Assembly (NCBI GenBank): GCA_030604905.1
Contig: JAUVVA010000024.1
Span: 1-38,921 of the forward strand
Length of the DNA stretch: 38,921 nucleotides
Origin: Verrucomicrobiota bacterium
Lineage (GTDB): Bacteria; Verrucomicrobiota; Verrucomicrobiia; Opitutales; Opitutaceae
Reading direction: 5' to 3'
Part shown: positions 11,794-38,097 of the stretch, piece by piece
How positions within the stretch are numbered: position 1 is the stretch's first letter
Layout: each line of letters begins with the position of its first letter
The notes under the pieces: model-generated
The model's database searches: none
What the model saw: the letters and a program-made list of their open reading frames with translations, nothing else
Told to the model about the DNA's origin: nothing
Position numbers and translations under genes: made by a program

Positions 11794-11846
11794 TCCCTAG
11801 CTTCTAGCCCCTAGCTCCTAGCCCCTAGTCCCTAGCTCCTAGCTCC
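11791..11846 (+). repeat. 7-bp tandem repeat array, TAGNNNC type, 8 units
   Basis: Eight consecutive heptamers (TAGTCCC, TAGCTTC, TAGCCCC, TAGCTCC and variants) fill the gap to the isomerase gene. The first TAG is the stop codon of the oxidoreductase. Two degenerate AGC units follow up to the ATG at 11857. Confidence 0.88.
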
Positions 11847-11856
11847 AGCCCCCAGC

Positions 11857-19888: not shown

Positions 19889-21865
19889 ATGGCCTCCCTC
19901 CGCCTCCTTCGCCTGTGCTTTGCCCCTTGGGCATTGGTCATTGGCCATTCGTCATTCGCGGCCGCGCCCGCGGTGCCCGCCGCACCCGCCCCGCTCGTCC
20001 AGCTCGCCTGGCCCGACTGGCTCATCATCGGCATCTACTTTGTCGTCACCTTCGCCATCGCCTTCTGGGCCGCTCGGCGGATCAAGGACTGCGGCGGCTA
20101 CCTCGTCGGCTCGCGCAAGCTCGGCAAATGGATGCTCGTCGCCGCCTCCTTCGCCGGCGGCACCAACGCCAACCACCCCATGGCCGTCGCCGCCGCCGCC
20201 TTCCAGCGCGGCCTCTCCGGCATCTGGATCAGCCTCACCTGGATGCTCATCACGCCCTTCTTCTGGCTCTACCCGCCGGTCGTGCGCCGCCTCCGCATCG
20301 TCACCCTCGCAGATATCGTCCGTCTCCGCTTCGGCGCCCCGCTCGACTGGACCCTGAAACTGCTCCTCCTCTTCAAGTTTCCCGTCGCGATGGGCCTCGG
20401 CATCAAGTCCGCCGCCATCGTCATCCAGGTGATGACCGGCGGCCACATCTCCGGCCCCGTCGCCGAGGCCCTCGTCGTCTTCCCCACCCTCGCCTACACG
20501 CTCATCGGCGGCATCGTCGCCGCCTACGCGACCGACATCTACCAGGGCCTGCTCATCGTCGTCCTGTCCTTTCTCCTCATCCCCTTCGCCATCTCCTCCG
20601 CCGGCGGCGTCGCCGCGCTCGACGCCCAGATCTCCGACGAGTTCACCAGCCTCCTCTCCGGCGCGCCCGGCGACTTCGGCTTCTGGTGGATCTTCTGGTT
20701 CGCCATCGGCATCACCTTCTCCGCCGTGCTCGCCTCCGTCGGCGGCGCCGCCACCGCGCGCGATGAAAACGCCGCCCGCGCCTCCGCCTACGGCCTTGTC
20801 CTGAAACGCTTCTGCACCGTCGGCTGGGGCTTCGTCGGCGTGCTCGCCATCGCCCTCTACGCCGGCCACCCGCTCCTCACGCCCGGCTCCGGCACGCCCG
20901 GCGCCTCGCCCGACAACGTCTTCCCCCTCGCCTCCGGCCAGCTCCTCCCCGTCGGCCTGCGCGGCCTCATGGTCGCGTCCATGCTCGCCGCCGTCATGTC
21001 GAGCCTCAACTCCGGCATCATCGGCTTCGGCGGCATGATGGTGAACAACATCTACCAAGCCCACCTCGTCCGCTCCGCCTCGCCCGCCCACTACCTCCTC
21101 GCCGCCCGCGTCTTCTCCGTCGTCGGCGTGCTCGGCGGCTGGTGGGTCGCCTCGGCCATCACCGACATCGTCGAGTTCTCCACCGTCGTCGAGCCGCTCG
21201 GCGGCCTCATGGGCATCGCCATCCTCGCCGCCATCGTCTGGCGCCGCGTCACCGCCGCCGGCGCCCTCGCCTCCTTCCTCGTCGCCGCGCCCCTTTTCCT
21301 CGCCGCCAACTTCCCCGCCTGGCCCGCGCGCCTCCCGCTCTTCGAGCTGCTCCACCTCCGCCCGCTCGTGGACGCCCTCGCCGGTCTCTACGGCCTTGAT
21401 CTGCTCGACCCCGCCCAAGGCTACCTCAACGCCGCCGGCGAGCTCGCCCGCCTGCCCGTCCAGATCAAATACCCGCTCTACCTCATGCCCTCGATCGCCG
21501 CGCTCATCGGCGTCTCGCTCCTCACCCGCCAGCACCGCCCCCGCGACGTCGAGGCCTTCTACTGCCGCCTCGACACCCCCGTCGGCCAGGAGCACCGCAT
21601 CCGCGAGGCCGGTTTCCAAGCCGACCAGATCGAAAACCTCGACGGCGACTCCGGCTCCACCCGCACCGACTCCGCCCCCGCCGCGCCCGCCGGCCCGCCC
21701 GATCGCCTGCTCCTCCCCGACCTCTTCCGCCTTCCCGGCCTGCTCCGCCGCGGCGAGGTCCGCCTCGCCGACTACCGCCGCGACCTCCTCGGCACCGCCG
21801 GCTCCATCCTCTTCGTCATCCTCTTCCTCCTCGGCGTCGAATACCTCGGCCGCGCCCTCTTCTAA
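19889..21865 (+). CDS. Sodium:solute symporter (SSS/SLC5 family) with an N-terminal signal-like segment
   Basis: 658 residues, many hydrophobic helices. SSS features include GGYLVGSRKLGKWMLVAASFAGGTNANHP near the start and MLAAVMSSLNSGIIGFGGMMVNNIY in the middle, the latter matching the family's conserved Ser/Asn-rich helix. It would take up a sugar, uronate or similar solute with Na+. A hydrophobic segment typical of a cleavable signal peptide (WALVIGHSSFAAAPA, about 14-28) precedes the first true helix; it is encoded by 7-bp repeats. A cleaved signal would set the N-terminus outside, as expected for SLC5 proteins. It sits between a GH28 gene (6 bp) and the heparinase-like pair (10 bp), so they form one operon. 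Confidence 0.9.
   Translation: MASLRLLRLCFAPWALVIGHSSFAAAPAVPAAPAPLVQLAWPDWLIIGIYFVVTFAIAFWAARRIKDCGGYLVGSRKLGKWMLVAASFAGGTNANHPMAVAAAAFQRGLSGIWISLTWMLITPFFWLYPPVVRRLRIVTLADIVRLRFGAPLDWTLKLLLLFKFPVAMGLGIKSAAIVIQVMTGGHISGPVAEALVVFPTLAYTLIGGIVAAYATDIYQGLLIVVLSFLLIPFAISSAGGVAALDAQISDEFTSLLSGAPGDFGFWWIFWFAIGITFSAVLASVGGAATARDENAARASAYGLVLKRFCTVGWGFVGVLAIALYAGHPLLTPGSGTPGASPDNVFPLASGQLLPVGLRGLMVASMLAAVMSSLNSGIIGFGGMMVNNIYQAHLVRSASPAHYLLAARVFSVVGVLGGWWVASAITDIVEFSTVVEPLGGLMGIAILAAIVWRRVTAAGALASFLVAAPLFLAANFPAWPARLPLFELLHLRPLVDALAGLYGLDLLDPAQGYLNAAGELARLPVQIKYPLYLMPSIAALIGVSLLTRQHRPRDVEAFYCRLDTPVGQEHRIREAGFQADQIENLDGDSGSTRTDSAPAAPAGPPDRLLLPDLFRLPGLLRRGEVRLADYRRDLLGTAGSILFVILFLLGVEYLGRALF
19927..19957 (+). 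repeat. 7-bp tandem repeat (TTGGTCA type) encoding signal-peptide core
   Basis: About four and a half heptamers (TTGGGCA, TTGGTCA, TTGGCCA, TTCGTCA) end in the GC-rich word TTCGCGGCCGCGCC. In frame they encode LVIGHSSFAAAP of the SSS symporter's N-terminal segment. Confidence 0.8.
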
Positions 21866-21875
21866 AAAACACCCT

Positions 21876-23894
21876 ATGCTCCCCCTCCGCCTCCTCCGCC
21901 TCTGCATAGTCCAGTGGATATTGGTCATTGGACATTGGTCATTCGCGGCCGCGCCAGCGGCCGCGCCGCACCCCCGCCTCTTTCTCGACGCCGCCCAGAT
22001 CCCCGGCCTGCGCGAACGCGCCGCCACCGAGCGCGGCGCGCGGCTCCTCGAGTCCATCCGCTGGATGCGCGACGGCGGCGACGCCTTCGGCACTCAAACC
22101 GGCAAGGCTTTTGGCAACGACGCCGCCCTCTACCTCGCCACCGGCGATCGCGCCTACGCCGACCTCGCCCGCGACGAGTTCCTCTTCCACGTCGCCAACC
22201 GCGAGGTCTGGGCCAACCCCGGCTTCCGCTCGCTCACCCGCGGCGCCATCACCCGCGGCGCCGCCATCAGCTACGATCTCTGCCACAACGCCTGGGCCGG
22301 CCAGACCGTGCCCGCCTCCGTCACCGTCCGCGGCGAGACCCGCGCCCTCCCCGCCGAGCTCGTCGGCCAAGACCTCAACCGGGTCGCCTCCCGCGCCCTC
22401 CTCGACTCCGCCCGCGCCCTCAACCAAAGCGGCGGCCCCGGCTGGCCCGGTAACCAACGCCTCGGCAACAACTGGTTCGCCGTTCGCTACGGCTCCGCCA
22501 TCCTCGCCCTGCTCGCGTGCGACGAGCCCGAGGAGGAGACCCGCGAGGCCCTCCAGACCGCGCTGCGCCACCTGCGCAACCACCTCCGCACCGCCTACTC
22601 CACCCACCGCGACGCGGCCGGTTGGAATCCCGAGGGCTACGGCTACACCTTCTACCCCGCCCAGTTCACCTACCCCGCCGCCCTCGCCCTCGCGCGCCTG
22701 CGCCAGATCCGCCTCGCCGACGAGATCCCCGCCCTGCGCGCCAGTTTCGGCGCCCTGCACCACGGTCTCCTCCCGCTTCCCACCCGCTTCCCCGGCCCCC
22801 TCTTTGGCCTGCGCCCCGACTTCACCGACGACCACAACCACTGGCTCGGCGAGGGCTTCGCCAACCTCGCCTTTGCCTTCGCCCCCGCCGATCAAATCCC
22901 CGGCCTGCGCTGGCTCTATCGCCGCTCCTTTGGCGAGCTCGGCGACGCCCGCTACGACACCGCCTCCGTCGGCGGCCTCTGGGCCCTTCTCCACCTTGAT
23001 CTCGACGGCCCGGAAAAAAACCCCGCCGACATCCCCTCCCTCGGTCTCAGCCTCTCCGATCCCCACCACGGCTACTACTCCTTCCGGAAGAGCTTCGGCG
23101 ATGACCCAGGCCAGGACGTCCTCTCCCAGTTCATGGCCAAGCACGTCCTCAGCCAGGGCGGCCACGCCGGGCCCGACGGCCTCGGTTTCCGCCTCTGGGG
23201 ACTTGGCACCCCTTGGACCGTCGGCTCCGGCCGCACCCACCGCGCCGGCGGCCAATGCACCGTCTTCACCGCCGATCCCGGCGACGAGCGCCACCGTTCC
23301 CAGGCCCACCGCACCGTCTCCAGCCTGCTCCGCCCCGCCGGCGGCGGCTACGTCGTCGCCCGCTCCGATCCGCTCTCCGATGTCGGCGTGCGCGACCACG
23401 TGCGCCGCTTCATCGTCGACTACCGCCCCGAGACCGGAGCCGAGGCCGCCTGGATCGTCGCCGACACCTCGGCCGACGGACGTATCTGGCGCATGAATAC
23501 ACCGGGCAAGCTCGAGGACGGGCGCGCCTACAACGTCATCACCCACGACGCCGCCACCGCCACGTTCACGATCACCAACCAGTTCAACGGCCACCGTCTC
23601 GTCGGCCGCGTCCTCCACCCCGAGCGCCCCGTGTTCCGCACCGGCACCTTCACCCGCGGCAACGCGACGAGCGTCCCGCTCGACCGCGCCACCGGCGCCT
23701 CCCTCACCGAAAACGCCTGGATCGACTTTGGCTCCGCCGACGGCGCCTTCGTCGTCGCCCTCACCCTCCACCGCAAGGGCCAGCCCGCCCCCGCCGTCTC
23801 CTCCACCGTCGCCACCGACGGCGCCCGCGAGATCCGCATCGGCCAAGCCACCTACACCATCGACGGCGACGGCATCCGCGTCCGCGGATGGTAA
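21876..23894 (+). CDS. Secreted heparinase II/III-like protein, paralogue 1
   Basis: 672 residues. Signal peptide at about 1-28 with core WILVIGHWSFAAAPA. The mature part begins HPRLFLDAAQIPGLRERA, a common opening of secreted heparinase-like proteins. The toroid domain carries LGNNWFAVRYGSAIL and WNPEGYGYTFYPAQFTY with E253, Y255 and Y257 in the catalytic YxEGxxY region. The beta-sandwich domain has GGHAGPDGLGFRLWGLGTPW, with H430 and D434 at the place of the HxHxDxxSF motif, partly altered. It should cleave or bind a uronate-containing polysaccharide in the periplasm or outside. It is a tandem duplicate of the next gene, which has an extra C-terminal part. Substrate unknown. Confidence 0.8.
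   Translation: MLPLRLLRLCIVQWILVIGHWSFAAAPAAAPHPRLFLDAAQIPGLRERAATERGARLLESIRWMRDGGDAFGTQTGKAFGNDAALYLATGDRAYADLARDEFLFHVANREVWANPGFRSLTRGAITRGAAISYDLCHNAWAGQTVPASVTVRGETRALPAELVGQDLNRVASRALLDSARALNQSGGPGWPGNQRLGNNWFAVRYGSAILALLACDEPEEETREALQTALRHLRNHLRTAYSTHRDAAGWNPEGYGYTFYPAQFTYPAALALARLRQIRLADEIPALRASFGALHHGLLPLPTRFPGPLFGLRPDFTDDHNHWLGEGFANLAFAFAPADQIPGLRWLYRRSFGELGDARYDTASVGGLWALLHLDLDGPEKNPADIPSLGLSLSDPHHGYYSFRKSFGDDPGQDVLSQFMAKHVLSQGGHAGPDGLGFRLWGLGTPWTVGSGRTHRAGGQCTVFTADPGDERHRSQAHRTVSSLLRPAGGGYVVARSDPLSDVGVRDHVRRFIVDYRPETGAEAAWIVADTSADGRIWRMNTPGKLEDGRAYNVITHDAATATFTITNQFNGHRLVGRVLHPERPVFRTGTFTRGNATSVPLDRATGASLTENAWIDFGSADGAFVVALTLHRKGQPAPAVSSTVATDGAREIRIGQATYTIDGDGIRVRGW
21914..21945 (+). 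repeat. 7-bp tandem repeat (TTGGTCA type) encoding signal-peptide core
   Basis: Units GTGGATA, TTGGTCA, TTGGACA, TTGGTCA, then TTCGCGG, encoding WILVIGHWSFAA in the first heparinase paralogue. Confidence 0.8.
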
Positions 23895-23916
23895 CGATCC
23901 CCAAACCCCGCCCCCC

Positions 23917-26900
23917 ATGCTCCCCACCCGCCTCCTCCGCCTCCTCCGCCTCTGCCTGGTCCATTGGACATTGGTCATTGGGCATTGGTCATTCGCCGCC
24001 GCGCCCGCCGAGTCCCATCCGCGTCTGTTCCTCGACGAGGCGGCCGTCGCCGCCGTCCGCGCCCGCGCCGCCACCCCGCAGGGCCGCCGCCTCGTCGAGT
24101 CCATCCGCTGGATGCGCGACGAGGGAGACCCCTTCGGCCTCGATAGCCGAAAAGCGTTTGGCAACAACGCCGCCCTCTACCTCGCCACCGGCGAGCGCGC
24201 CCACGCCGACCTCGCCCGCGACGAGTTCCTTTTCTACCTCTCCCAAACCGAGGTCTGGGCCAACCCCTCCTTCCGCTCCCTCTCCCGCGGCGCCATCGCC
24301 CGCGGCGCCGCCATCACCTATGACCTTTGCCACCCCGCCTGGGTCGGCCAAAAAGTCCCCGCCAGCGTCACCTTCCGCGGCGAGACGCGTCCGCTCCCCG
24401 CCGAGCTCGTCGGCCGCGATCTCAACACCGTCGCCTCCCGCGCCCTCTTCGAATCCGGCCGCGCCCTCGTGCAAAGCGGCGGCCGCGAATGGCCCGGCAA
24501 CACCAAGCTCGGCAACAACTGGTTCGCCGTCCGCTTCGGCTCCGCCCTCCTCGCCCTCCTCGCCTGCGACGAGCCCGAAGAGGAGATCCGCCCCCACTAC
24601 GAGACCGCCCTGCGCCACCTGCGCACCCACCTCCAGACCGCCTACTCCACCCACCCTCGCGCCGGCGGCTGGAACCCCGAAGGCTACGGCTACACCCTCT
24701 ACCCCGCCCAGTTCACCTACCCCGCCGCCCTCGCCCTCTCGCGCCTCCGCGGCGTTCACCTCGCCGACGAGATCCCCGCCCTGCGGCTCAACTTCGCCGC
24801 GCTCTACCATGGACTCCTCGCCCTGCCGATGCGCTTCCCCGGCCCCCTCCTCGGCCTCCACCCCGACTTCACCGACGACAACGCCAACTGGATCGGCGAG
24901 GGCGTCGCCAACCTCGCCTTCGCCTTCGCCCCGCCCGAGCAACACCCCGCGCTCCGCTGGATCTACCGCCGCTCCTTCGGCGATCTCGGCGACGCCCGCT
25001 ACGACACCGCCTCCTCCGGCGGGCTCTGGGGCCTCCTCTTCCTCGACTTCGACGGCCCCGAGCAAAACCCCGCCGAGGTCCCCGCCTTTGGCGGCCTCAA
25101 CTTCGCCGACCACCACCACGGTCTCTTCAGCTTCCGCAAATCCTTCGGCGACCCCGCCGGCGCGGACATCCTCGGCCAGTTCATGGCCAAGACCGTGCTC
25201 TCCGCGGGCGGCCACGCCGCGCCCGACGGCCTCGGCTTCCGCCTTTGGGGCCTTGGCGTCCCCTGGGCCGTCGGCTCCGGTCGCACCACCAAGGCCGCCG
25301 GCCAAAACACCGTCTTCCCCGGCGAGCCCGACGACGCCGGAAACAGCTCCCAGGTCCACCGCGTCATCGACTCCTACCTGCGCCCCGCGGGCGGCGGCTA
25401 CGTCGTCGCCACCTCCCAGCCCTTCTCCGACGTCGGCGTGCGCAACCACGTTCGCCGCTTCATCGCCGACTACCGCCCCGAGACCGGCGCCGAGGCCGCC
25501 TGGATCGTGGCCGACACCTCCGTCAACGGCCGTATCTGGCGCATGAATACGGTCGGGCCCCTCGAGGACGGCCGTCCCTACAACGTCATCACCCACGACT
25601 CCGCCGCAGCCACCTTCACCATCGAGAACCAGTTCACCGGCCACCGCCTCGTCGCCCGCGTCCTCCACCCCGCCCGCCCCGTCTTCCGCACCGGCACCTT
25701 CAAACGCGGCAGCGCCATGAGCGCCCCCCTCGATCTCAAATCCCGGGGCGCCACCTCGCCCGAAAACGCCTGGATCGATTTCCCCTCGGACGACGGCGCC
25801 TTCGTCGTCGCCTTCACCCTCCTCCGCAAAGGCCGGTCCGCCCCGAACATTTCCTCCACCGTCGCGGCCGGCGGCACGCGCGAGATCCGCGTCGGCCGCG
25901 CCCACTACACCCTCGCCGGTGAGACCATCCGCGTCGCCGGCTGGGAACGCCCCCGCCTCACCATCACCCAACCCGCCCCGGACGCCTTCTTCTCCGGCGG
26001 CGAACAATCCGTTCCCGTCTCCGGCCGCGCCGCCACCGCCTCCGGCAAACCCGTCGCCGCCATCTCCCTCTCCGTCCCCGGCCAGTCCCCGGTCCCCGGC
26101 CGCATCTCCGGAGACGCCTGGAGCGTCGACAGCCCCCGCCTTCCCCTCGGCGCCCACACGCTCCTCGTCCGCGTCGTGGACGCGGACGGCGGCTACACCG
26201 AGCAAAACCTCCCCGTCCGGATCACCCGCTCCCATCCGCCGGTCCTCAGCCTCTCTTCGCCCGCTTCCGGCTCCATCCTCGCCTCCGACGAGGCGCTCGT
26301 GTTTTCCGGAAGGGTCTCCGACCCCGACGGCCCGCTCCCCGCCGCCGTCGAACTCCTCGGCGGCGAACAAAACACCCTCGTCCGCGCCGCACCCGCGCCC
26401 GACGGCAGCTTCTCCCTCACTCTCCCCGCCGCCCGCTTCACCCCCGGCCGACACCGCTTCACCCTCCGCGCCGCGGACTCGAGCGACGACCTCACCGAGC
26501 TGGGGCCCATCGAGCTTCTCGCCAGCCGCCCCTTCAGCGACGCCTCGCCCTACAGCGATCTCGCCGCCTGGACACGCGAGACCGAGTGGCGTGTCTCCCT
26601 CGAGGACGAGGACGGCAACCTTCGCTACACGATCTCGCCCTCCCAAGGCTACCGCCTACGCCGCGCCCTTGCCTACCTTCCCGACCGCACGATCACCGGC
26701 CCCTTCCACCTCCGCCTCAAACTCCGGCTTCGCAGCCCCGAGAGCGTGTTCCAGGTCCGCTTCGGCCGCGACTCCTACCTCACCCTCGGCGGCCCCGCCG
26801 CTTCGGGCCCCCACGCCTTCCTCGGCTTCTCCGCCGCCGGTGAGCGCGCCATCGCCCGCCTTAAACAGCCGGCCATCCCCGACCTCGAATGGCACGAGCT

Positions 26901-27153
26901 CGACATCATCCGCACCGAGGAAAGCTTCGAGGTGCGCCGCAACGGGACCAGCCTGGTCAAGATCACCCTCAAAGCCGACCGCTCCGTCTCCGTCACCCCC
27001 GCCGACGCCCTCGCCTGGGATCCCGTCGAGGGACCCTTCGGCCGCCGCGGCGGTTCGCTCAACCGCGTCTGGGCCGCCGGCCGCTTCGGCATCGGCGCCC
27101 CCTTCGCCGACCAGAGCCACCTCCAGCTCGACGACATCATTCTCATCGAATAG
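23917..27153 (+). CDS. Secreted heparinase II/III-like protein, paralogue 2, with Ig-like and LamG-type C-terminal domains
   Basis: 1078 residues. Signal peptide with core WTLVIGHWSFAAAPA. Residues 1 to about 672 align with the upstream gene throughout, by eye at roughly three quarters identity, including WNPEGYGYTLYPAQFTY (E255) and GGHAAPDGLGFRLWGLG. The extra 400 residues contain two Ig-like/cadherin-like modules (about 673-770 starting PRLTITQPAPDAFFSGG, and about 770-860 starting HPPVLSLSSPASGS). A concanavalin/LamG-like domain follows to the end (about 875-1078, SDLAAWTRETEWRVSLEDEDG). These extras probably bind glycan or cell surface. Gain in this copy or loss in the other after tandem duplication are both possible. 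Gap to the previous gene is 22 bp. Confidence 0.82.
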   Translation: MLPTRLLRLLRLCLVHWTLVIGHWSFAAAPAESHPRLFLDEAAVAAVRARAATPQGRRLVESIRWMRDEGDPFGLDSRKAFGNNAALYLATGERAHADLARDEFLFYLSQTEVWANPSFRSLSRGAIARGAAITYDLCHPAWVGQKVPASVTFRGETRPLPAELVGRDLNTVASRALFESGRALVQSGGREWPGNTKLGNNWFAVRFGSALLALLACDEPEEEIRPHYETALRHLRTHLQTAYSTHPRAGGWNPEGYGYTLYPAQFTYPAALALSRLRGVHLADEIPALRLNFAALYHGLLALPMRFPGPLLGLHPDFTDDNANWIGEGVANLAFAFAPPEQHPALRWIYRRSFGDLGDARYDTASSGGLWGLLFLDFDGPEQNPAEVPAFGGLNFADHHHGLFSFRKSFGDPAGADILGQFMAKTVLSAGGHAAPDGLGFRLWGLGVPWAVGSGRTTKAAGQNTVFPGEPDDAGNSSQVHRVIDSYLRPAGGGYVVATSQPFSDVGVRNHVRRFIADYRPETGAEAAWIVADTSVNGRIWRMNTVGPLEDGRPYNVITHDSAAATFTIENQFTGHRLVARVLHPARPVFRTGTFKRGSAMSAPLDLKSRGATSPENAWIDFPSDDGAFVVAFTLLRKGRSAPNISSTVAAGGTREIRVGRAHYTLAGETIRVAGWERPRLTITQPAPDAFFSGGEQSVPVSGRAATASGKPVAAISLSVPGQSPVPGRISGDAWSVDSPRLPLGAHTLLVRVVDADGGYTEQNLPVRITRSHPPVLSLSSPASGSILASDEALVFSGRVSDPDGPLPAAVELLGGEQNTLVRAAPAPDGSFSLTLPAARFTPGRHRFTLRAADSSDDLTELGPIELLASRPFSDASPYSDLAAWTRETEWRVSLEDEDGNLRYTISPSQGYRLRRALAYLPDRTITGPFHLRLKLRLRSPESVFQVRFGRDSYLTLGGPAASGPHAFLGFSAAGERAIARLKQPAIPDLEWHELDIIRTEESFEVRRNGTSLVKITLKADRSVSVTPADALAWDPVEGPFGRRGGSLNRVWAAGRFGIGAPFADQSHLQLDDIILIE
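23964..23995 (+). repeat. 7-bp tandem repeat (TTGGTCA type) encoding signal-peptide core
   Basis: Units TTGGACA, TTGGTCA, TTGGGCA, TTGGTCA, then TTCGCCG, encoding the repeated peptide LVIGHWS in the second heparinase paralogue; one unit more than in paralogue 1. Confidence 0.8.
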
Positions 27154-27178
27154 CCGCCCGCGCCTCGCATCGCCCTGG

Positions 27179-28666: not shown

Positions 28667-29808
28667 TTCATCACCCGCTCGCCCGCCTCCTCGCCGTGCT
28701 CTCCCTCTCTGCTCCACTCCACGCCTCCGAGCGCGGCGAGATCTCCCTGCGCGAGGCCTTCGCCGCCCACTTCTCCATCGGCTTCGGCACCGGCCAAACC
28801 AACGACGCCCGCTCCGCTCTCCTCCGCCACCACGCCACCTCGCTCACCTGCGAAAACGTCCTCAAGCCCCGCCCTCTCCGCCCCAGCCCGGAGCCCGGCG
28901 TCTTCGCTTGGGAACGCGCCGACGCCTGGCTCGCCTGGGTCGAGTCGCTCGGCCTCAAGCCCGTCGGCCACACCCTCGTCTGGAGTTACCAGATGCCCGA
29001 ATGGCTCCTCGAGCGCGCCCGCTCCGGCGCGCTCACCCGCGACGAAGCCCTCGCCTGGCAAGACGCGCACATCCGCGCCGTCCTCGCCCGCTACGGCGAC
29101 CGCATCCGCACCTGGGACGTGGTCAACGAAGCCCTCTCCGACGCGTCCTCCCCCGACACCTACCTGCGCGACGACCCCTGGCTGAATCTCGTCGGCGAGG
29201 ACGGTCTCGTCGCCGCCTTCCGCTCCGCCCGCGCCGCCGCGCCGCACGCCAAGCTCCTCTACAACGACTACAACCTCGAGCAGCGCGCCAAGCGCGCCCG
29301 CGCCCTCCGCCTCCTCCGCCGCCTCGAAGCCGAAGGCCTCCGCCCCGACGCCGTAGGCATCCAGGGCCACTGCACGCTCTCCGCCCCGCCCGCCGCCGAC
29401 TTCGAGGCCGCCATCCTCGAGCTCCACGCCGCCGGCTACCCCGTGCACATCACCGAACTCGACGTCTCCGTCTACGACTGGGCCCCGGGCGCCGACATCG
29501 GCGCCATGATGAAACGGCGCTACGATCCCGCCACCGATCTCGGCTACGACACGCTCCCGCCCGAGCTCCACGAACGTCTCGCCGCCCGCTACCGCGAGCT
29601 CTTCGCCGTCTTCCTCCGCCACGCCGACAAGCTCGAACGCGTCGCCTTCTGGAACGTGGACGACGGCCACACCTGGCTGCGCAACTGGCCCCTCCCCGGC
29701 CGCCCCAACCACCCGCTCCTCTTCGACGCGCAACAGCAGCCCAAGCCCGCGTTCCACGCCGTGCTCGGCCTCCTGCGTCCGAACGCGAGCCCCGCCCCCT
29801 CCCCCTGA
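28663..29808 (+). CDS. GH10 endo-beta-1,4-xylanase, secreted
   Basis: 381 residues. Signal peptide at about 1-22 (LARLLAVLSLSAPLHAS). A single GH10 TIM barrel: LTCENVLKPRPLRP, GHTLVW (102-107), acid/base E156 in WDVVNEAL, YNDYNLE, GIQGHCTL and nucleophile E265 in ITELDVSVYDW. The usual HTLVWHSQ reads HTLVWSYQ, so a His that lines the -1 subsite in typical xylanases is missing. The C-terminus ends KPAFHAVL as in the family. It would cut beta-1,4-xylan or mixed-linked xylose/glucose chains outside the cell. ATG 28663 overlaps the preceding TGA, and a gene for another secreted heparinase-like protein follows after 2 bp. Confidence 0.93.
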   Translation: MIHHPLARLLAVLSLSAPLHASERGEISLREAFAAHFSIGFGTGQTNDARSALLRHHATSLTCENVLKPRPLRPSPEPGVFAWERADAWLAWVESLGLKPVGHTLVWSYQMPEWLLERARSGALTRDEALAWQDAHIRAVLARYGDRIRTWDVVNEALSDASSPDTYLRDDPWLNLVGEDGLVAAFRSARAAAPHAKLLYNDYNLEQRAKRARALRLLRRLEAEGLRPDAVGIQGHCTLSAPPAADFEAAILELHAAGYPVHITELDVSVYDWAPGADIGAMMKRRYDPATDLGYDTLPPELHERLAARYRELFAVFLRHADKLERVAFWNVDDGHTWLRNWPLPGRPNHPLLFDAQQQPKPAFHAVLGLLRPNASPAPSP

Positions 29809-29810
29809 TC

Positions 29811-32423
29811 ATGAACTTCCTCCGTCATTGGGCCTTGGTCATTGGATCTTGGTCGTTCGCGGCCGCGCTCGCCGCCGCGCCGTCCCTCCCCGACGACGCC
29901 TTCCTCTCCTTTCCGCTCCAGGCCTTCTTCGCCGGCCGGACCGAGGCCGGCCAGGACAAGCCGCTCAACCTCTACCTCGTCCGCCGCGACGGCCGCTGGG
30001 CCTCCGGCCTCGGCACCGCCACCATCAAGGGCAAAGCAATCTGGAACACCGCGCTCATGCCGGTGGATGTATCCGACCTATCGCTACAAGACGATCGTCT
30101 CGCCGGCCGACTGCGCATCACCCTCGTCCCCGACCCGTGGAAGCCGGACGACCGCCGCCCGCGCGTCGCCACCGTCGCGCTCGACGCCCGGGTTCTCCCG
30201 CCCGCGACGCCCGAGGCCCGCCCGCGCCTCGAAGGCACGTGGCGCTCCACCATCGGCGAGGACCCCGCCACGCTCGCCGCCGCCTTCCTGCGCCCCGAGG
30301 CCGCCGGCACCTTCGCCGCGACGCTCGGCCCCGCGCCCGACCACGCCGGCTCCGACGTCTCCTACGACCTCGCCCTCTACGATTTCCTGCCCACGCCCGG
30401 CCTCGACGCCCACCACGGCCGCCTCGCCCTTTCCCTCGGCCTCCGCGAGGCCCGTCTCGTCTCCGCCCGTCTGGGCAAGATGGATATCCGCCACCGCGCC
30501 TACGACTACCAACCGCTCCCCCTTCCCGCCGCGCCCGACGCCCTCGCCACCACGCCCGACAGCTTCTCCCTCACGCTTCCGCTCACCCTCGCCGACCTCG
30601 AAGGCGAGGAACGCACCCTCACCGTCCGCCTCGAAGGCCGCCGCGTCGTCAACTGGCTGGTCGGCGAATGGTCCACCAACGACGGTCGCTCCGGCTGGTT
30701 CCGCGGCAACGCCGCCCCCGGCGCGCACGTCCCCGAGTCCGACCCGCTCGCCGCCGACACCCGTCCCTGGTTCGCCCCCGCGCCCGGCCACCAACCCGTA
30801 GCCCCCGGCGAGCATCCGCGCCTCTTCTTCCGCAAATCCGACCTCCCCGAACTGCGCCGCCGCGCCGCCACGCCCGAGGGCCAGATCATCCTCGCCCGCC
30901 TCCGCCAATTGCTCGACGGGGCCGACGCCTCCACGCCCTGGCTCGACTTCAACCCCGCCACCCGCGCCTACGAGAACAACAAGTTCCGCGCCCGCCCCGG
31001 ATCCTACTCGATCTCGCACGCCGCCGGCCACGGTTTCTTGTATCAGCTTTCTGGTGACGCCCGCCACGCCGAGCTCGCCCGCGCCTGCGTGGACGCCGCC
31101 CTCGAAGGCCGGCGCAACCACGATGACCGCTACGCCTACCTCGCCCCCGGCGGCGAACTCCGCGCCGGCCCCACCCTCGCCTGGCTCGCAGTCGCCTACG
31201 ACCTCTGTTACGAGGCCTGGCCCGAGGACTACCGCCGGCACGTCGCCCGCGCCCTCGTCGACTACGCCGACCAGCGCGGCGGCGAGTGGAACACCCCCGA
31301 GGGCATCACCTTTCGCCGGATGGTTCTCACCCCCAAGCACGGCCCCGCCTCGAATCACTTCGGCGCCGTCGTCGGTGGCGCCGGCCTGGTCGTGCTCGCC
31401 CTCCTTGACGACCCCGGCCTCGACCATGCCCTGCTCCGCCGCTACCTCGCCATCCTCGAGCGCAACGTCGTCCGCCACCTCTCCGCCGGCTGGGGCGACG
31501 GCGGCTACTACGCCGAGGGCTGGGGCGCCTCGCGCGTCGGCACCCAGGGCGCCTTTCTCCCCTTTCTCCAGGCCCTGCGCGTCGCCGCCGGACGCGACTA
31601 CGTGAACGTCGAGCGCCCCAACGCCTCCTACGTCACGATGATCCCGCGCACCCACCTCGTGCTCGGGCCTCCCGCCGTCTTCCCCTACCGCTCCAGCATG
31701 GGCCCCACTTACGGCCGTCCGGAAATCGGCCACGCCTCCCAGCGCGAAGGCTTCTCCCACGGCGGCTATTTTTCCGAAGGCTTCGGCGCCGTCGCCGACC
31801 GCCACAAGCCCGCCCTCCTCTGGACCCACGCGCGCCTCTTCGCCGACGACCCCTTCGACCTCGCGAGCCTCTACCCGCACCGCGCCATGCTCGCGCTCAT
31901 CAACTGGCCCACCTTCACCGGCCTCGCCGCCGAGAACCCCGCGACCGCCCTGCCCCTCGCCGTTCGCGACCAGCTCCACGACCACTTCGCCTTCCGCAAC
32001 CGCTTTCACGACGACGACGACATCCTCGTCACCGCGCTGCTCCGACCCGTCTCCGGCACCCGCCCCCGCGAGATCATGGTCTGGGGCCTCGGCGGCCTCC
32101 GCCTCGAGCTTGGCGAACCACCCCGCGCCGCCCGCGTCACGAGCTACCATGCCGCCGCCGATGGTTCCGCGCGCCTCGTCACCACGGAAGACTTCGCCCT
32201 TACCGTGGACTACTCGCGCGCCTCCGGCGCCGACGCCGTGGTCATCGTCCGCGGCGCCTCCGCTCCGAAACCGCTCCCCGCCGCCGCCGCGCCCCGCGCC
32301 CGCCTCGTCGAGATCGGCCCCTACCGCGTCCTCACCCTCTCCGCCGCGGGCACTCACCCCGAAGCCACGCTCGACGGCGACACCCTCGTCCTCGGCGCCC
32401 ACCGTCTCCGCCTCGCGCCATGA
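29811..32423 (+). CDS. Secreted heparinase II/III-like protein with N-terminal beta domain
   Basis: 870 residues. Signal peptide at about 1-24 with repeat-encoded core HWALVIGSWSFAAALA. Residues about 25-330 are beta-rich and unassigned. From about 335 (HPRLFFRKSDLPELRRRA) the heparinase-like toroid begins, with SNHFGAVVGGAGLVVLALL and GGYYAEGWGASRVGTQGAF (E569 in the YxEG segment). The expected HGHAD-type motif near the C-terminus is not obvious; HDDDDILVTALLRP lies in that area. It is more divergent from the paralogue pair at 21876 and 23917 than they are from each other. It ends ATGA, overlapping the esterase gene. Likely a polysaccharide lyase; target unknown. Confidence 0.75.
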   Translation: MNFLRHWALVIGSWSFAAALAAAPSLPDDAFLSFPLQAFFAGRTEAGQDKPLNLYLVRRDGRWASGLGTATIKGKAIWNTALMPVDVSDLSLQDDRLAGRLRITLVPDPWKPDDRRPRVATVALDARVLPPATPEARPRLEGTWRSTIGEDPATLAAAFLRPEAAGTFAATLGPAPDHAGSDVSYDLALYDFLPTPGLDAHHGRLALSLGLREARLVSARLGKMDIRHRAYDYQPLPLPAAPDALATTPDSFSLTLPLTLADLEGEERTLTVRLEGRRVVNWLVGEWSTNDGRSGWFRGNAAPGAHVPESDPLAADTRPWFAPAPGHQPVAPGEHPRLFFRKSDLPELRRRAATPEGQIILARLRQLLDGADASTPWLDFNPATRAYENNKFRARPGSYSISHAAGHGFLYQLSGDARHAELARACVDAALEGRRNHDDRYAYLAPGGELRAGPTLAWLAVAYDLCYEAWPEDYRRHVARALVDYADQRGGEWNTPEGITFRRMVLTPKHGPASNHFGAVVGGAGLVVLALLDDPGLDHALLRRYLAILERNVVRHLSAGWGDGGYYAEGWGASRVGTQGAFLPFLQALRVAAGRDYVNVERPNASYVTMIPRTHLVLGPPAVFPYRSSMGPTYGRPEIGHASQREGFSHGGYFSEGFGAVADRHKPALLWTHARLFADDPFDLASLYPHRAMLALINWPTFTGLAAENPATALPLAVRDQLHDHFAFRNRFHDDDDILVTALLRPVSGTRPREIMVWGLGGLRLELGEPPRAARVTSYHAAADGSARLVTTEDFALTVDYSRASGADAVVIVRGASAPKPLPAAAAPRARLVEIGPYRVLTLSAAGTHPEATLDGDTLVLGAHRLRLAP
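29828..29862 (+). repeat. 7-bp tandem repeat (TTGGTCA type) encoding signal-peptide core
   Basis: Units TTGGGCC, TTGGTCA, TTGGATC, TTGGTCG, then TTCGCGG, encoding LVIGSWSFAAA in the secreted protein starting at 29811. Confidence 0.78.
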
Positions 32424-33547
32424 ACCGCCGCGCCGCCCTCGCTCTCCTCGCCGCGCTGCCCTTCGCCCTGCGCGCAGCCACCGACTCCAACCCCGCCGCG
32501 CCCGCGTCCGCACCGGATCTCGCCGAACATCCCCACTGGCCCCTCGGCTTCCGCCTGCCCGACGCCTTCGTCGTCCGCCGCCCCGACAAGCGCCCGCCCC
32601 GCGCCGACATCCTCCTCTGGCTCCCGCCCTCCACCTCGCCGCGCGCACTGCTGATCATCCCCGAAAACTCCGACTCGAAACACTTCGGCGAATACGGGCC
32701 CCTGCGCGAGGTCGCCTCGCGCCACGGCCTCGCCATCGCCTATCTCCGCGGCGCGGTTCAACCCGGCGTCGAGGACCAGCCCGCCCCGGCCGACCCCGCG
32801 CGCCTCCCGCGACTCCTCGACGAACTGGCCGCCCTCGCCGGCCTCCCCGCCCTTCGCCACGCGCCCTGGATCGTCTTCGGCAAATCGTCCCGCGGCCGCC
32901 TCCCCTTCCGCACCGCCTGGCTCCACCCGGAGCGTGTCATCGCCACCGTTTCCTACCACGCCGAGACTCCTCCGTATCCGCCCGCCGACTACGCCGTTTC
33001 CCCGCCGGACGGCTTCACCCCGCTCCACGTGAACATCAACGGCGCCACCGAGTGGGGCGGCACCTGGCACCGCCACGTCCGCCCCGCCCTCCTCGGCTAC
33101 CGCGCCCACACCGGCTGGCTGCCTCATCAAGTGGTCGTCCCCGGCGTCGGCCACGGCGACTACGCCGACGTCCACGGCAGCCCCGGCTGGGGCAAACCCT
33201 TCCCCGACCGGGTCACCTGCGTCGAGGTCTGGGACTACCTCGCGCTTTTCATCGACCGCGCCCTGCGCCTCCGCCTCCCCGACTCCGGCTCGCCCTCCAT
33301 GGCCGAAACCCCGCCCGCCCTGCGCGCCGTAAACGAGGCGGACGGCTGGCTGCTTTCCCCCGCCGCCATCGACGCGCTCCTCGCGGGAGGCTCCACCGAA
33401 GCCGCTATCCGCCCCGCCCACGAAGTGCCGCCCGAGTCGCGCCTCGACCACTTCTGGCTCCCCGACGAAACCCTCGCCCGCGCCTGGCTCCGCCTCCACG
33501 CGCCACGGGGCTGGAGTGAAGGACGCAGCGAAGCGGAGACAGCGTAG
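32420..33547 (+). CDS. Secreted alpha/beta-hydrolase, putative carbohydrate esterase
   Basis: 375 residues. Signal peptide at about 1-20 (MNRRAALALLAALPFALRAA). The fold is alpha/beta hydrolase-like: ALLIIPENSDS, then the nucleophile elbow FGKSSRGRLPF (about 153-163) with Ser in a GxSxG-like context (GKSSRG), and a late His in VVPGVGHGDYADVHG (about 235-249) that may complete the triad. It could remove acetyl or other ester groups from xylan or pectin, fitting the neighbouring GH10 and lyase-like genes. ATG 32420 overlaps the upstream TGA. The last dozen codons (GWSEGRSEAETA) run into a low-complexity repeat that continues past the stop, so the native C-terminus may have been replaced. Confidence 0.7.
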   Translation: MNRRAALALLAALPFALRAATDSNPAAPASAPDLAEHPHWPLGFRLPDAFVVRRPDKRPPRADILLWLPPSTSPRALLIIPENSDSKHFGEYGPLREVASRHGLAIAYLRGAVQPGVEDQPAPADPARLPRLLDELAALAGLPALRHAPWIVFGKSSRGRLPFRTAWLHPERVIATVSYHAETPPYPPADYAVSPPDGFTPLHVNINGATEWGGTWHRHVRPALLGYRAHTGWLPHQVVVPGVGHGDYADVHGSPGWGKPFPDRVTCVEVWDYLALFIDRALRLRLPDSGSPSMAETPPALRAVNEADGWLLSPAAIDALLAGGSTEAAIRPAHEVPPESRLDHFWLPDETLARAWLRLHAPRGWSEGRSEAETA

Positions 33548-33600
33548 CCCGGAGCCGCAGGCGGAGGGTGAGCCCGCAGGGCGAACCATACGCGGAGAGT
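33519..33600 (+). repeat. GC-rich low-complexity repeat at the end of the esterase gene
   Basis: The stretch consists of recurring GCAGCGAAGCGGAG-like words. It supplies the last esterase codons and its stop, then continues into the gap up to the inverted-repeat element at 33606. Confidence 0.4.
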
Positions 33601-33605
33601 ATTTT

Positions 33606-33782
33606 AACCCGGATTCCGCGATTGTCCCGGCGGAGTATCGCGCGAGGTGGTGAGGCGGAAGATCGTCGCGGAATCCCGACGTGTCCCGTTCCGCGGGAGA
33701 AGGTGCATGGAGCGGATGACGCGGCGAGCTGGCGGCCACCAGCTTGGGTGAGACGACCCGCGACAACCGCGGATTCCGGGTT
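33606..33782 (+). mobile_element. 177-bp MITE-like element with 21-bp imperfect terminal inverted repeats
   Basis: The left end (33606-33626, starting AACCCGGATTCCGCG) matches the reverse complement of the right end (33762-33782, starting GACAACCGCGGATTC) at 19 of 21 positions. Inside are two further perfect hairpins: CGCGGAA/TTCCGCG (33667-33695) and AGCTGG/CCAGCT (33727-33744). No target-site duplication is evident and no transposase is encoded. A minus-strand ORF through it looks like a by-product. The element could be a non-autonomous transposon or a structured RNA. The rest of the 568-bp gap (33548-34115) holds repeat sequence before it, and plain sequence with an AT-richer patch (about 33935-33980) after it. 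Confidence 0.6.
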
Positions 33783-34023
33783 TGAACGAGGGCCCCGCCG
33801 AAGGGTGCCGCGCGATCACCCCAATGCAATTACCGCTTGATCGATAAATCCACGACCATCCCGCGCAACCACTGATCCACCCCTGCGCGTTGCCGTCACA
33901 CCCCGGCACCGATCAGGCCTGCACGATCCACTCAAATCCGCTCACATAAAACAGTAAAATAATACCCGCCATTAGTTGTCCTCACCGCTTCAGGCTTTTC
34001 GCCGCGCTCCGAGCGCCTCATTC

Positions 34024-34038
34024 ACTTGACCGTTACAC
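34024..34038 (+). promoter_or_regulatory. Operator-like site 3 of three
   Basis: ACTTGACCGTTACAC, sharing 12 of 15 positions across all three sites (2125, 18273, 34024). It lies 77 bp before the start of the haem-domain protein and just after an AT-richer patch that could hold the promoter. Confidence 0.5.
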
Positions 34039-34115
34039 CTCCCGCTTTGCTTGGTCTACCCCCTTGCGACCGAGCCGCCACGCGGATTCCTCCCCTCAAC
34101 CCCACCTCGGTTCCC

Positions 34116-36908
34116 ATGCACACCCCCGCCCCCGCGGCGCGCCCGCTCTCGCGCGCCCGCTCCCCCCGCCCCAGCCCCCGCGGCCCCCGCGCCGCTCTCC
34201 TCGCCGCCCTCGCCTCGCTCGCCGCCCCCTTCGCCCTCGGCGAGGTCGTCTTCAGCACCGGCTTCAACGCCTTCACGAACAACGGCGCCGACGCGGTGAA
34301 GGTCAACGGCGGCTCCGACACCAACATCGCCGTCACCGGCGCCGGCAGCAACAACCCCTCCCCCGCCGGCTACTGGACCGTGGCCGACGCCACCGCGATC
34401 GACCTCGCCGGTCGCGCCTTCCTCCAGATCCCCGCCGTCCTCACCGGCGGCTCCGCCTTCACCTACGGCGACGTCTCCGTCGCCAACAGCCAGCTCAAAA
34501 AAGGCGCCGTCTTCACCACCCGAGGCGACTTCACCCACACCAACGGCTCCGTTAACGCGCAGATCCGCTACGCCGCCTCCACGTCCCCTCATCGAGGCTA
34601 CGTCCAGCTCAACTCCTCCGGCCTTCACGACGTCCGCTTCAACGTCCCCTTCGAGATCAAGCCCGGCGCCGCCCCCCGTGCCGGCTGGGAACTCTCCTTC
34701 CGCTACGGCACCGGCGCCACCTCCGCCGATTCCTGGCACAACAACAGCGCCGCCCAAAACGGCTCCGCCACCGCCCAGGTCTTCGCCGTCGATCCCGCCA
34801 CCGGCCTCGTCGCCACCAGCCCCACCCTCACCTTCCCCTCGGTCAACCTCGCCGGCGCCGGCCCCCTCGCCACCCTCTCCGCGCTCGATGCCGGCGCCGC
34901 CCTCGGCCCCGGCCACTACCTGCTCAGCATCCACCTCCACGGCAAGACTCGCAACGAGCGCTACACCATCGACGACCTCTCCGTCTCCGCCGCCTCCGGC
35001 GCCACCGAGGTCATCCTCGACAACAACGCGCCCTCCGGCGTCACCCTCGCCGGCTCCTGGACCACCGCCACCTCCGCCCCCGGCTACTTTGGCGCCAACT
35101 ACCTCCACGACGGCTCCTCCGGCAAAGGCTCCAAGACCGTCACCTACTCCCCCGCCCTCGCCGCCGGCGTCTACGCCGTCAGCATCCGCTACCCCGCCGC
35201 CTCCGGCCACGCCGCCAACGTGCCCGTCGACGTCTCCCACGCCCAGGGCGTCGACTACATCACCGTCGACCAGCGCTCCGGCGGCGGCCAGTGGCTCCTC
35301 CTCGGTCACTACCGCTTCGGCGCCGGCTCCTCCGGCTACGTGCGCATCTCCAACGTCGGCACCACCGGCCTCGTCGTCGCCGACGCCGTCAAGTTCACCC
35401 CCATCGGCGAACCCTCCGACATCGAGGTCCTCGCCGACGGCCTGATCGACTGGCGCACCCCCGATGGCGACGGCATCTCCTGCGCCCAGTGCCACGGCCC
35501 CGCCGGCTACGACGTCGCCGTCTTCAGCTTCACCCAGGCCGACCTCCGCCGCGCCACCGCCCCCCACCTCGACGACGCCGCCGCCGACCGCATCTTCAAG
35601 ATGATCGAGCTGCACCGCCGCAACTACCCGCCCGCGGGCGGCCTCAGGGACGTCGAGACCTTCCGCCCCTTCCAGCCCACCGGCGTCGTCCTCGGCGGAG
35701 CCAACGCCACCCAGGAACAGCGCGACGCCGCCTTCGGCAATCACGTCGCGGCCAACTTCCTCTACGCCCAAGGCCGCATCACCACCCTCGCTCAGGCCCA
35801 GGCCGCGCGCGACCAATTGGTGGCCCTCGACGTCGACTCCGTGCCCATCGGCATCGCCTTCAACCGCTGGTCCGAGTCCGTCTCCCGCCAAGGCGCCCAG
35901 GATGGCGGCAAGATCGCCGAGTGGCTCCCCGGCATCGGCTTCCAGGTGCTCGGCGCCAACGCCGCCGCCTTCGAGGCCCTCGAGGACGCCTACGTCGCCA
36001 ACCCCACCGACGCCAACTTCTGGGCCCTCTTCCACAAGATCGACGCCTGGACCACGCCCGATCCCGTCAACACCAGCACCGTAAGCGATCCCCACTGGAT
36101 CCGCCTCCACCGCGAGCAGCTAAAGTCCAACCTCATCTTCCAACACGACGAGCTCCTCAAGTCCCAGGGCATCCACGACTGGGTGACCGGCCGCACCAGC
36201 GTGCGCCCCTTCCAGGATCAGGAAGGCAAGGGCAGCATCCTCTTCTCCTTCTGGGAGGTCGGCGACGCTTCCCGCATCGTGAAGAGCACTCCCTTCTCCC
36301 AGCTCCCCAAGCGCCACCAAGACTCGATGTGGGTCAGCGGCACCGAAACCGTCGGCGATCAGGTCCACCGCCTCAGCAACACCTGGTTTTACTTGGGCTG
36401 GACCATGGATCACAGCCTCTTCTTTAGCGGGAACAGCAACCCCGCCCGCTCCGGCGAATACTTCATCGGCCGCCTCTGGGCCGAAAATCTTCGCGCGCAT
36501 TCAGTGTTCTTCAACACCACCCACGCCGTCAAACGCGGCTTCCTCCCCGGCGGCTGGGCCGGCGGCAACGGCGGCGGACCCGTGCAACACTTCAACTCCC
36601 ATAAACCCTACTATCTCGCCTACAACCGATACAAAAAAGGCGCCGACGCCCCGGGCTACCCCGGCTCCGCCGACACCTATCGGCTACAACTCGGCAACTC
36701 CGTCCGCCTCATGGCCCTGCTCCATGAACAAGACATCAAGGACAAGGGCTTCGTCCACACCACCAACGGAGGCGGCAAGACCTCCATGCTCACCCACGTC
36801 GAACTCATGCGCGACGTCCTCGACTGGGCCGATCTCGCAAACAAGGCCCAAAACGACGCCATCCTCGACGCTCTGATCGCCACCATCAACGCGTATCCAC
36901 CCCATTGA
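34116..36908 (+). CDS. Secreted protein with golvesin-like carbohydrate-binding domain and c-type haem motif
   Basis: 930 residues from ATG 34116. A long basic n-region and hydrophobic core (ALLAALASLAAPFALG, about 26-41) form a signal peptide. Residues about 42-295 are a beta-rich, Gly/Ser/Thr-rich region (FSTGFNAFTNN onwards). Residues about 298-430 resemble the golvesin/xanthan-lyase C-terminal binding module (VILDNNAPSGVTLAGSWTTA; YVRISNVGTTGLVVADAVKF). Then comes a single CxxCH haem site, C456-A-Q-C459-H460, followed by a helical region to the end. Haem would be attached after export. The last 400 residues, rich in Trp, His and Asn, match nothing I recognise. It sits alone with its own operator-like site, suggesting an oxidative or electron-transfer step on glycan, but activity is unknown. 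Confidence 0.72.
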   Translation: MHTPAPAARPLSRARSPRPSPRGPRAALLAALASLAAPFALGEVVFSTGFNAFTNNGADAVKVNGGSDTNIAVTGAGSNNPSPAGYWTVADATAIDLAGRAFLQIPAVLTGGSAFTYGDVSVANSQLKKGAVFTTRGDFTHTNGSVNAQIRYAASTSPHRGYVQLNSSGLHDVRFNVPFEIKPGAAPRAGWELSFRYGTGATSADSWHNNSAAQNGSATAQVFAVDPATGLVATSPTLTFPSVNLAGAGPLATLSALDAGAALGPGHYLLSIHLHGKTRNERYTIDDLSVSAASGATEVILDNNAPSGVTLAGSWTTATSAPGYFGANYLHDGSSGKGSKTVTYSPALAAGVYAVSIRYPAASGHAANVPVDVSHAQGVDYITVDQRSGGGQWLLLGHYRFGAGSSGYVRISNVGTTGLVVADAVKFTPIGEPSDIEVLADGLIDWRTPDGDGISCAQCHGPAGYDVAVFSFTQADLRRATAPHLDDAAADRIFKMIELHRRNYPPAGGLRDVETFRPFQPTGVVLGGANATQEQRDAAFGNHVAANFLYAQGRITTLAQAQAARDQLVALDVDSVPIGIAFNRWSESVSRQGAQDGGKIAEWLPGIGFQVLGANAAAFEALEDAYVANPTDANFWALFHKIDAWTTPDPVNTSTVSDPHWIRLHREQLKSNLIFQHDELLKSQGIHDWVTGRTSVRPFQDQEGKGSILFSFWEVGDASRIVKSTPFSQLPKRHQDSMWVSGTETVGDQVHRLSNTWFYLGWTMDHSLFFSGNSNPARSGEYFIGRLWAENLRAHSVFFNTTHAVKRGFLPGGWAGGNGGGPVQHFNSHKPYYLAYNRYKKGADAPGYPGSADTYRLQLGNSVRLMALLHEQDIKDKGFVHTTNGGGKTSMLTHVELMRDVLDWADLANKAQNDAILDALIATINAYPPH

Positions 36909-36920
36909 TACGCCCAATGC

Positions 36921-36960
36921 CGCGCGCCCCCTCTCTTTATTTTGGGGGGGGGGGCGCGCG
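36921..36960 (+). terminator. Strong GC hairpin with an 11-G tract, possible terminator
   Basis: CGCGCGCCCCC (36921-36931) pairs perfectly with GGGGGCGCGCG (36950-36960), 13 bp after the stop of the haem-domain gene. The loop contains TTTATTTT and the start of an 11-G run (36944-36954). No T tract follows the stem, so it is not a classical intrinsic terminator, but it could stop or protect the transcript end. A G11 run is also prone to length change or sequencing error. Confidence 0.4.
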
Positions 36961-37062
36961 CCCCGCGCCCGCAGCGACCGGGCGCTTTGGCAAGCATGGC
37001 ACCGCCCCCTCCAAGCATCCCGCCTCCCAGCTCACCGTCCATCCGCGATTAGTCGTTCAGCA

Positions 37063-37086
37063 TTGGTCATTGGTCATTGGTCATTC
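37063..37086 (+). repeat. 7-bp tandem repeat (TTGGTCA), three identical units
   Basis: TTGGTCA is repeated three times without change, then TTC. It is the most regular array of this family in the window and encodes SLVIGHS at the start of the small ORF below. Confidence 0.85.
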
Positions 37087-37573: not shown

Positions 37574-37596
37574 TCCGCTTCCGCACCGACTGCTCT

Positions 37597-37658
37597 CTGG
37601 TCATGTCAAACCAGCCACCTCCTGTGGCTAGAGGTCATTGGTCATTCGTCCTTCGTCC
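37597..37658 (+). repeat. Dispersed repeat, copy B (CTGGTCATGTCAAACCAG type) with two hairpins
   Basis: Carries the same core as copy A at 18516. CTGGT/ACCAG (37597-37614) forms the first hairpin, and AGCCAC/GTGGCT with a 5-nt loop (37613-37629) a second, perfect one. GGCTAGAGG and 7-bp units (TTGGTCA, TTCGTCC, TTCGTCC) follow. Confidence 0.65.
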
Positions 37659-38064: not shown

Positions 38065-38097
38065 CCCCTTGCCCCTCCGCCCCCGCCTCCTTCCACC

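Follow-up and report, generated by a model that had tools for sequence, protein, structure and literature searches.

Tandem 7-bp repeats of one intergenic family very probably land at gene starts and are kept there as hydrophobic-core material in exported proteins. The repeat, written (CATTGGT)nCATTC, is mainly a 5' leader element lying in the sense direction of its gene, and at some gene starts it forms N-termini that are predicted Sec signal peptides. The best proof that such predicted signal peptides are built from the repeat is the comparison of orthologues with and without an array. We analyzed a window, i.e., the whole stretch of 38,921 nucleotides from a Verrucomicrobiota bacterium, together with G000 (366 kb of the same genome, made up of the window and 20 other stretches picked for holding arrays), G013 (a relative within the genus), and G018 (a complete genome, treated with the cases beyond the genus). 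A previous, sequence-only reading of the window had presented signal peptides as the repeat's setting and missed the 5' leader as its main home.

The heptamer family and its placement

The doubled TTGGTCA unit, at no more than 2 mismatches, matched the window 13 times against 0.04 expected, and 0 of 100 shuffles gave as many as 13 matches. Throughout the own genome the doubled unit (no more than 1 mismatch) gave 232 + 230 matches and the reversed-control unit gave 0. Exact tandem steps in the 366 kb of G000 numbered 92 for TTGGTCA and 11 for the second-ranked heptamer; arrays of at least 3 units numbered 50, compared with 0 to 2 for 11 of 12 shuffled control units and 11 for the other, ATTTGGC. 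On the window count, the reversed control, and the shuffled units, chance was rejected as the source of the arrays, which consist of tandem 7-bp units in many genome-wide copies. Read on its sense strand, a TTGGTCA-type array is stop-free in all three frames and, because 7 and 3 have no common factor, gives the same LVIGHWS cycle in each; the 7-residue periodic peptide of the sequence-only reading is thus confirmed, in every frame, and is weakly hydrophobic. When 2340 strand-specific heptamer classes were ranked by how well they read as a hydrophobic peptide without stops, TTGGTCA came within the top ~12%, which is favorable but not unique.

Arrays were classed by an in-frame-ATG rule, leaders being those no more than 250 nt 5' of a start codon in the same orientation. 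The 50 arrays of G000 comprised 27 leaders, 14 N-terminal arrays (13 with ATG, 1 with GTG), 6 other intergenic arrays, 2 antisense overlaps, 1 array before a convergent gene, and 0 internal to a coding sequence in sense direction. Corresponding counts were 30 leaders, 4 N-terminal, and 6 internal for G013 (n = 49) and 19, 3, and 3 for G018 (n = 27), so that the repeat is mainly intergenic and near start codons in all three. Some leader arrays precede genes whose N-termini we take to be EF-P-like and enolase-like. In G000 (30 eligible arrays), 13 open ATGs upstream of an array shared the gene's frame, against 4 and 1 in the two other frames; the corresponding counts in G018 (12 eligible) were 3, 0, and 1, and G013 (30 eligible) showed no gene-frame excess (4, 3, and 3).

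Since their start or export nature was doubtful, several N-terminal arrays were counted by hand with the leaders, namely L045-8618 in G000 (14 becoming 13), L088-9341 in G013, and L061+5855, L077-5590, and L078-5642 in G018; L071+2889, a poor 3-unit array, was retained. Of the 50 arrays in the 366 kb of G000, the resulting signal-peptide class has 13, distributed over 12 genes. By these hand classes the three genomes together have 19 signal-peptide arrays and 9 internal ones among the sense arrays in coding sequences; the latter, in G013 and G018, are distant from the start, and arrays are therefore tolerated elsewhere in coding sequence. A rough rule assigns N-termini of signal-peptide or transmembrane type to 51 of 198 genes; on that basis signal peptides would make up ~2% of coding DNA, far below the 19/28 share of the arrays. 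Some of this excess could be due simply to arrays favoring gene starts. Signal-peptide arrays have fewer units than leader and intergenic arrays (P = 0.003, G000 and G013 together), a possible sign of selection.

Several other features were noted. A second heptamer family, CTAGCCT / CCCCTAG, occurs at gene junctions (window 6861-6894 and 11787-11856); its sense unit contains TAG, so no frame of a pure array is free of stops. Directly 5' of some arrays lies a short-hairpin word, AGCCACCTCC.GTGGCT (window 37590-37630; L045 ~8618 and 14964; L038 ~9323-9427). In opposite-facing array pairs (at least 2 units each, within 150 bp), the minus-strand array precedes the plus-strand one in all five cases (L049, L084, L088, L094, and L095), so hairpins are possible, and the L049 and L095 pairs occupy orthologous places. 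On the minus strand of L082 (~11335, G013), an in-frame array lies inside a kinase-like protein, presumably between its DFG-like and APE-like motifs. Of the 133 21-mer matches in G018, the 100 listed all lie on the plus strand as far as 2.26 Mb and all on the minus strand beyond it. Genes near arrays there run in that same direction in 157 of 163 cases, versus 79 of 103 for 20 regions elsewhere, and the direction rule has exceptions among two-unit arrays. One G018 leader array (L064) has 21 nearly perfect units.

Array-bearing genes of the window

Window genes were called by codon log-odds, which found plus-strand genes alone (Table 1). Sec signal peptides with AXA cleavage have a basic n-region, a hydrophobic core, and an Ala-rich c-region before the exported domain. 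Of the six arrays that the sequence-only reading had placed in frame within a signal-peptide h-region, five (in the genes at 4046, 19889, 21876, 23917, and 29811) are in frame with the downstream gene, follow a start codon and basic n-region, and are themselves followed by an Ala-rich region. The sixth, at 37063, is best taken as a leader: an in-frame ATG was looked for upstream and not found, the called gene begins at a TTG within the array, and an ordinary hydrophobic stretch, RPALLLLALLPLG, comes next, on which grounds this array was rejected as a signal peptide. The FAAAPA-type word said to follow most arrays was recovered as a FAAA tail 3' of four of the six (19927, 21921, 23964, and 29821), and was not found at 4094 or 37063.

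Table 1. Arrays and array-bearing genes of the window, with start codons where arrays are in frame (SP, signal peptide; TRF, Tandem Repeats Finder).
Feature	Position	Strand	Basis or remark
Fusion of solute-binding and ABC permease domains (SBP_bac_1, BPD_transp_1), GTG start, predicted SP with degenerate array	4046..6844	+	Gene call, domain search; N-terminus VSPLRHLLLTRLRRAP[VVIRHSAFVI]LTIAALCAALPVRA
Degenerate TTCGGCA-type array, 4 units by own finder	4094..4121 (TRF 4095-4124)	+	First part of hydrophobic stretch VVIRHSAFVI-LTIAALCAALPVRA
Sodium:solute symporter, ATG start, with extra N-terminal predicted SP MASLRLLRLCFAPWALVIGHSSFAAAPA	19889..21865	+	SSF domain
Heptamer array, 4 units, in symporter h-region	19927..19954 (TRF 19927-19956)	+	TRF, doubled-unit search
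GC-rich word TTCGCGGCCGCGCC encoding FAAAP, c-region of symporter predicted SP	19955..19968	+	Sequence reading
Paralogue A, ATG start, 74% identical to next gene, predicted SP MLPLRLLRLCIVQWILVIGHWSFAAAPA	21876..23894	+	Gene call, protein comparison
Heptamer array, 3 units, paralogue A	21921..21941 (TRF 21915-21943)	+	TRF, own finder
Paralogue B with Ig-like domain, ATG start, predicted SP MLPTRLLRLLRLCLVHWTLVIGHWSFAAAPA	23917..27153	+	Gene call, domain search
Heptamer array, 4 units, paralogue B	23964..23991 (TRF 23957-23993)	+	TRF, own finder
Gene with sub-cutoff HepB similarity, ATG start, predicted SP MNFLRHWALVIGSWSFAAALAAAP	29811..32423	+	Gene call, model search
Heptamer array, 3 units by own finder, in h-region	29821..29841 (TRF 29824-29854)	+	TRF, own finder
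Perfect 3-unit array, read as leader	37063..37083 (TRF 37061-37085)	+	No in-frame upstream ATG
Intergenic array 3' of hairpin-like word, non-coding by gene calls; seventh array, absent from the sequence-only reading	37631..37658	+	Own finder

The equation of array and h-region holds in part: the arrays contribute to the hydrophobic core, but in most cases other codons, such as those for the preceding LRLLRLC and similar peptides, supply the remainder, and at 4094 the hydropathy peak lies mostly 3' of the array. That array, which had been assigned to one TTGGTCA family with the others, is real but degenerate, with 0.75 identity to TTGGTCA. Among the 12 own-genome cases, the first 14 residues carry a net charge of 1 to 4 in 12/12, and the best 10-residue Kyte-Doolittle mean is 1.6 to 2.9, partly owing to non-array codons; often the peak lies mostly in ordinary codons rather than in the array. 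His and Trp, both present in the LVIGHWS cycle, are unusual within an h-region. Array-bearing proteins have domains of exported or membrane kinds above cut-off (SBP, SSF, alginate lyase, glucuronyl esterase, CE2, LptA, FlgI, and sulfatase), while 8 of the 17 signal-peptide-class proteins scanned lacked a Pfam match.

The proteins behind the window arrays had been described as unrelated: a symporter, heparinase-like proteins, and a solute-binding protein. The symporter and the solute-binding domain were found, the latter fused to a permease, but the heparinase label is weak, since a sub-cutoff HepB match was obtained for 29811 alone and none to heparinase for 21876 and 23917 in Pfam and NCBIfam. 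The genes at 21876 and 23917 are paralogues of each other. Solved structures searched for 21876 and 29811 gave no credible match. For the symporter, the gene caller took a later GTG (19973), and ATG 19889, chosen by eye and by the in-frame-ATG rule, was preferred because it makes the signal peptide complete. Matches to the PutP and PanF models begin at residues 46 and 48, respectively, so the first ~40 residues are extra; the N-terminus of PutP is outside, which would suit a signal peptide on a symporter. Plasmid records gave only distant matches to this protein. Between the array end and the common HPRLFLD motif, 21876 and 23917 have no in-frame ATG, GTG, or TTG, and in 23917 a TTG within the array is a conceivable alternative start. 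Since the 23917 product was matched in 2 of 250 family genomes, its own included, the window signal peptides are not datable. A separate 115-bp tandem repeat (2.2 copies) occupies window positions 37827-38084.

Orthologues with and without the array

We searched 38 genomes with LptA of G013 (PF03968) and obtained matches in 31; the own genome gave no LptA match in this search. Among the 12 orthologues found within the genus, seven (G003, G005, G006, G007, G009, G010, and G013) have an array in the predicted signal peptide, of four units in 7/7, and five (G001, G002, G004, G011, and G012) have plain signal peptides. In 12/12 orthologues the LptA start codon and the TGA of the upstream LptC-like gene overlap (ATGA). 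In the seven with an array this ATG is the sole in-frame upstream one, and the array follows it by 42, 45, or 54 nt, which places the array within the translated frame. The sequence-only reading had named two results that would speak against it, true starts downstream of the arrays and an unchanged peptide over unrelated codons. The LptA starts, however, are upstream, and G010 presents the reverse of the second: its array units have drifted to TGGGTCC-like forms, so that the DNA period is kept and the peptide changed. G010 and G012 have the n-region MSLLR in common, with the array in G010 alone. Seven family outgroup orthologues had no array near the LptA start, and the LptA tree needs 4 label changes, its starred branches forcing 2. 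Mean hydropathy peaks of the LptA signal peptides were 2.4 for the array type versus 2.8 for the plain type. The LptC-like neighbor has an array in 4 of 12 orthologues, with four units in 4/4, and none in three outgroups.

A CE2 esterase search, matching 6 of 43 genomes, found the array in the G000 gene and its G013 orthologue, i.e., in both species where the orthologue was found, and none in two paralogues from G013 or in four distant homologues; our finder counted 3 and 5 units in this pair, and by eye there are five each, degenerate in G000. Together with the extracytoplasmic and membrane domains above cut-off, the LptA, LptC-like, and CE2 orthologues support the earlier proposal that repeats are captured as export signals. 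Alginate lyase matched in 2 of 57 genomes, and the G000/G013 pair (91% identical) keeps its signal-peptide array in place with four units in both, while the leader array, located ~50 bp farther upstream, shows a two-unit difference (a 14-nt step). Four orthologous gene pairs have arrays in both genome samples, and in 3 of the 4 the leader unit number differs; unit number in the family thus changes between relatives.

Beyond the genus, a 21-mer of the repeat (no more than 2 mismatches) occurred in 17 of 57 genomes, comprising all 15 of the genus (own included) and two of 42 from other genera, and a related 21-mer occurred in 38 of 387 genomes of the phylum. A groundwater Verrucomicrobia MAG encodes a sulfatase (L055; PF00884) with a predicted array signal peptide, MSRLVWSFVILSSFVIRHSSFAAAPRPPNIVLMLVDDLG; G442, of another family, has MKHHPQSVIRHSSFVIASALAASAACA ahead of a sub-cutoff PHP match; and G018 has an array in the predicted signal peptide of FlgI. 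Among 29 array loci from the phylum search (L163-L191), L169 alone is a clear signal-peptide case and L170 is doubtful, the remainder being leaders or nothing. Capture of an array as a signal peptide has probably happened more than once.

Proposed origin of the array signal peptides, and known systems

The following sequence of events would account for these observations. The heptamer family is present genome-wide, for the most part in 5' leaders and in sense direction, and an array landing at or growing over a gene start would yield an in-frame N-terminal hydrophobic segment, since all of its frames are stop-free and each reads as the weakly hydrophobic LVIGHWS. Where the gene encodes an exported protein, with a basic N-terminus before the array and Ala-rich codons after it, the array could be kept in the Sec h-region, replacing the ordinary one, and selection might then hold unit number and hydrophobicity. 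The family, its position in leaders, its occurrence within signal-like N-terminal segments, and the array-bearing and plain forms of LptA, the LptC-like protein, and CE2 are observed; the insertion or expansion step, this direction of change, the selection, and export with cleavage are what we infer.

Were the arrays merely 5' leader repeats with true starts downstream, the signal peptides would be an illusion of gene calling. Most arrays are indeed leaders, the one at 37063 fits such a reading, and false extensions are easy when all frames are open, with out-of-frame upstream ATGs numbering 5 in G000, 1 in G018, and 6 in G013. However, the stop-overlapping LptA starts, the n-region common to the G010 and G012 proteins, and the stretch free of start codons behind the arrays of 21876 and 23917 make it very improbable. 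A heptamer in a signal peptide might also act as a phase-variation switch, as 7 is not a multiple of 3 and one unit more or less would shift the frame and turn export off; leader arrays do change by whole units among close relatives. Yet the coding tracts of LptA and the LptC-like protein hold four units across species, without the variation among relatives that marks a phase-variable locus, and perfect tracts are shorter in signal-peptide arrays than in leaders (P = 0.008 in G000; P = 0.053 with G013 added), so that a switch is very improbable.

It is also conceivable, though we consider it unlikely, that array recombination carried a cassette of n-region, array, and FAAAPA from one gene to another, unrelated one, and the sequence-only reading had raised repeat-mediated spread of this kind. 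One pair hints at it: the symporter and gene 21876 are 82% identical in DNA over 85 bp, and the identity of their n-regions is 76% over 38 nt, higher than in any of the 1275 pairs formed from 51 signal-peptide-like N-termini (mean 44%, maximum 74%); furthermore, a 13-base word 3' of the array recurs in three window genes. But this is a single adjacent pair chosen after seeing it, from which spread of a whole signal cassette is at most suggested, and array signal peptides elsewhere differ in their n- and c-regions. Tight array + FAAA matches number 4 across the own genome, of which the window accounts for 3, and 2 in the collection of genome contigs (the L055 sulfatase signal peptide and L056, with two units in a doubtful frame); a widespread cassette was rejected on these counts. 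Equally tentative is a broader proposal, that the family forms a standing supply of export signals whose segments (n-region, array, and c-region) are swapped between unrelated secreted proteins via array recombination; if such a supply existed, a sense array near a start codon would be one upstream ATG short of a signal peptide.

As to capture of an intergenic repeat at gene starts, the reading that we prefer, its interest is that the origin of new signal peptides is an open question and could here be traced to a simple repeat. Since one genus has both array-bearing and array-free orthologues, the exchange between ordinary signal peptide and repeat DNA would be datable and countable. For gene callers there is a warning, since leader arrays read through every frame and can mimic signal peptides.

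Heptamer repeats, also as leaders, are already known, and their use in signal peptides would be the new part according to our literature search: the doubled repeat, its complement, and the peptide letters gave no mention in a search mostly of papers open without subscription, and among the literature matches listed, judged by title and abstract opening, none reported heptamer repeats as signal peptides. Cyanobacterial short tandem repeats of heptamer type bear the name STRR. Rickettsia palindromic elements and the repeats called PARCEL resemble the present arrays in being repeat DNA within ORFs that adds peptide, and are not known to be heptamers or tied to signal peptides. The PARCEL repeats have spread into coding sequences (PMC2996958). 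Marine Beggiatoaceae have TAACTGA heptamers whose forward repeats carry stops and so, unlike TTGGTCA, cannot encode a sense N-terminus; the term "signal peptide" is absent from the main text of the paper describing them (PMC4679880). The GGGAATC / GGGGATT heptamers of Xanthomonas and Nostoc resemble the present family in being mostly intergenic, genome-wide, located between the same genes in relatives, and variable in length, but they are G-rich and quadruplex-forming, and the available part of the paper describes no export-signal role (PMC4692102). With Sec signal peptides in general, the array-bearing ones have in common the basic n-region, hydrophobic core, and Ala-rich c-region, and they differ in that the core is partly encoded by a tandem repeat common to non-coding leaders.
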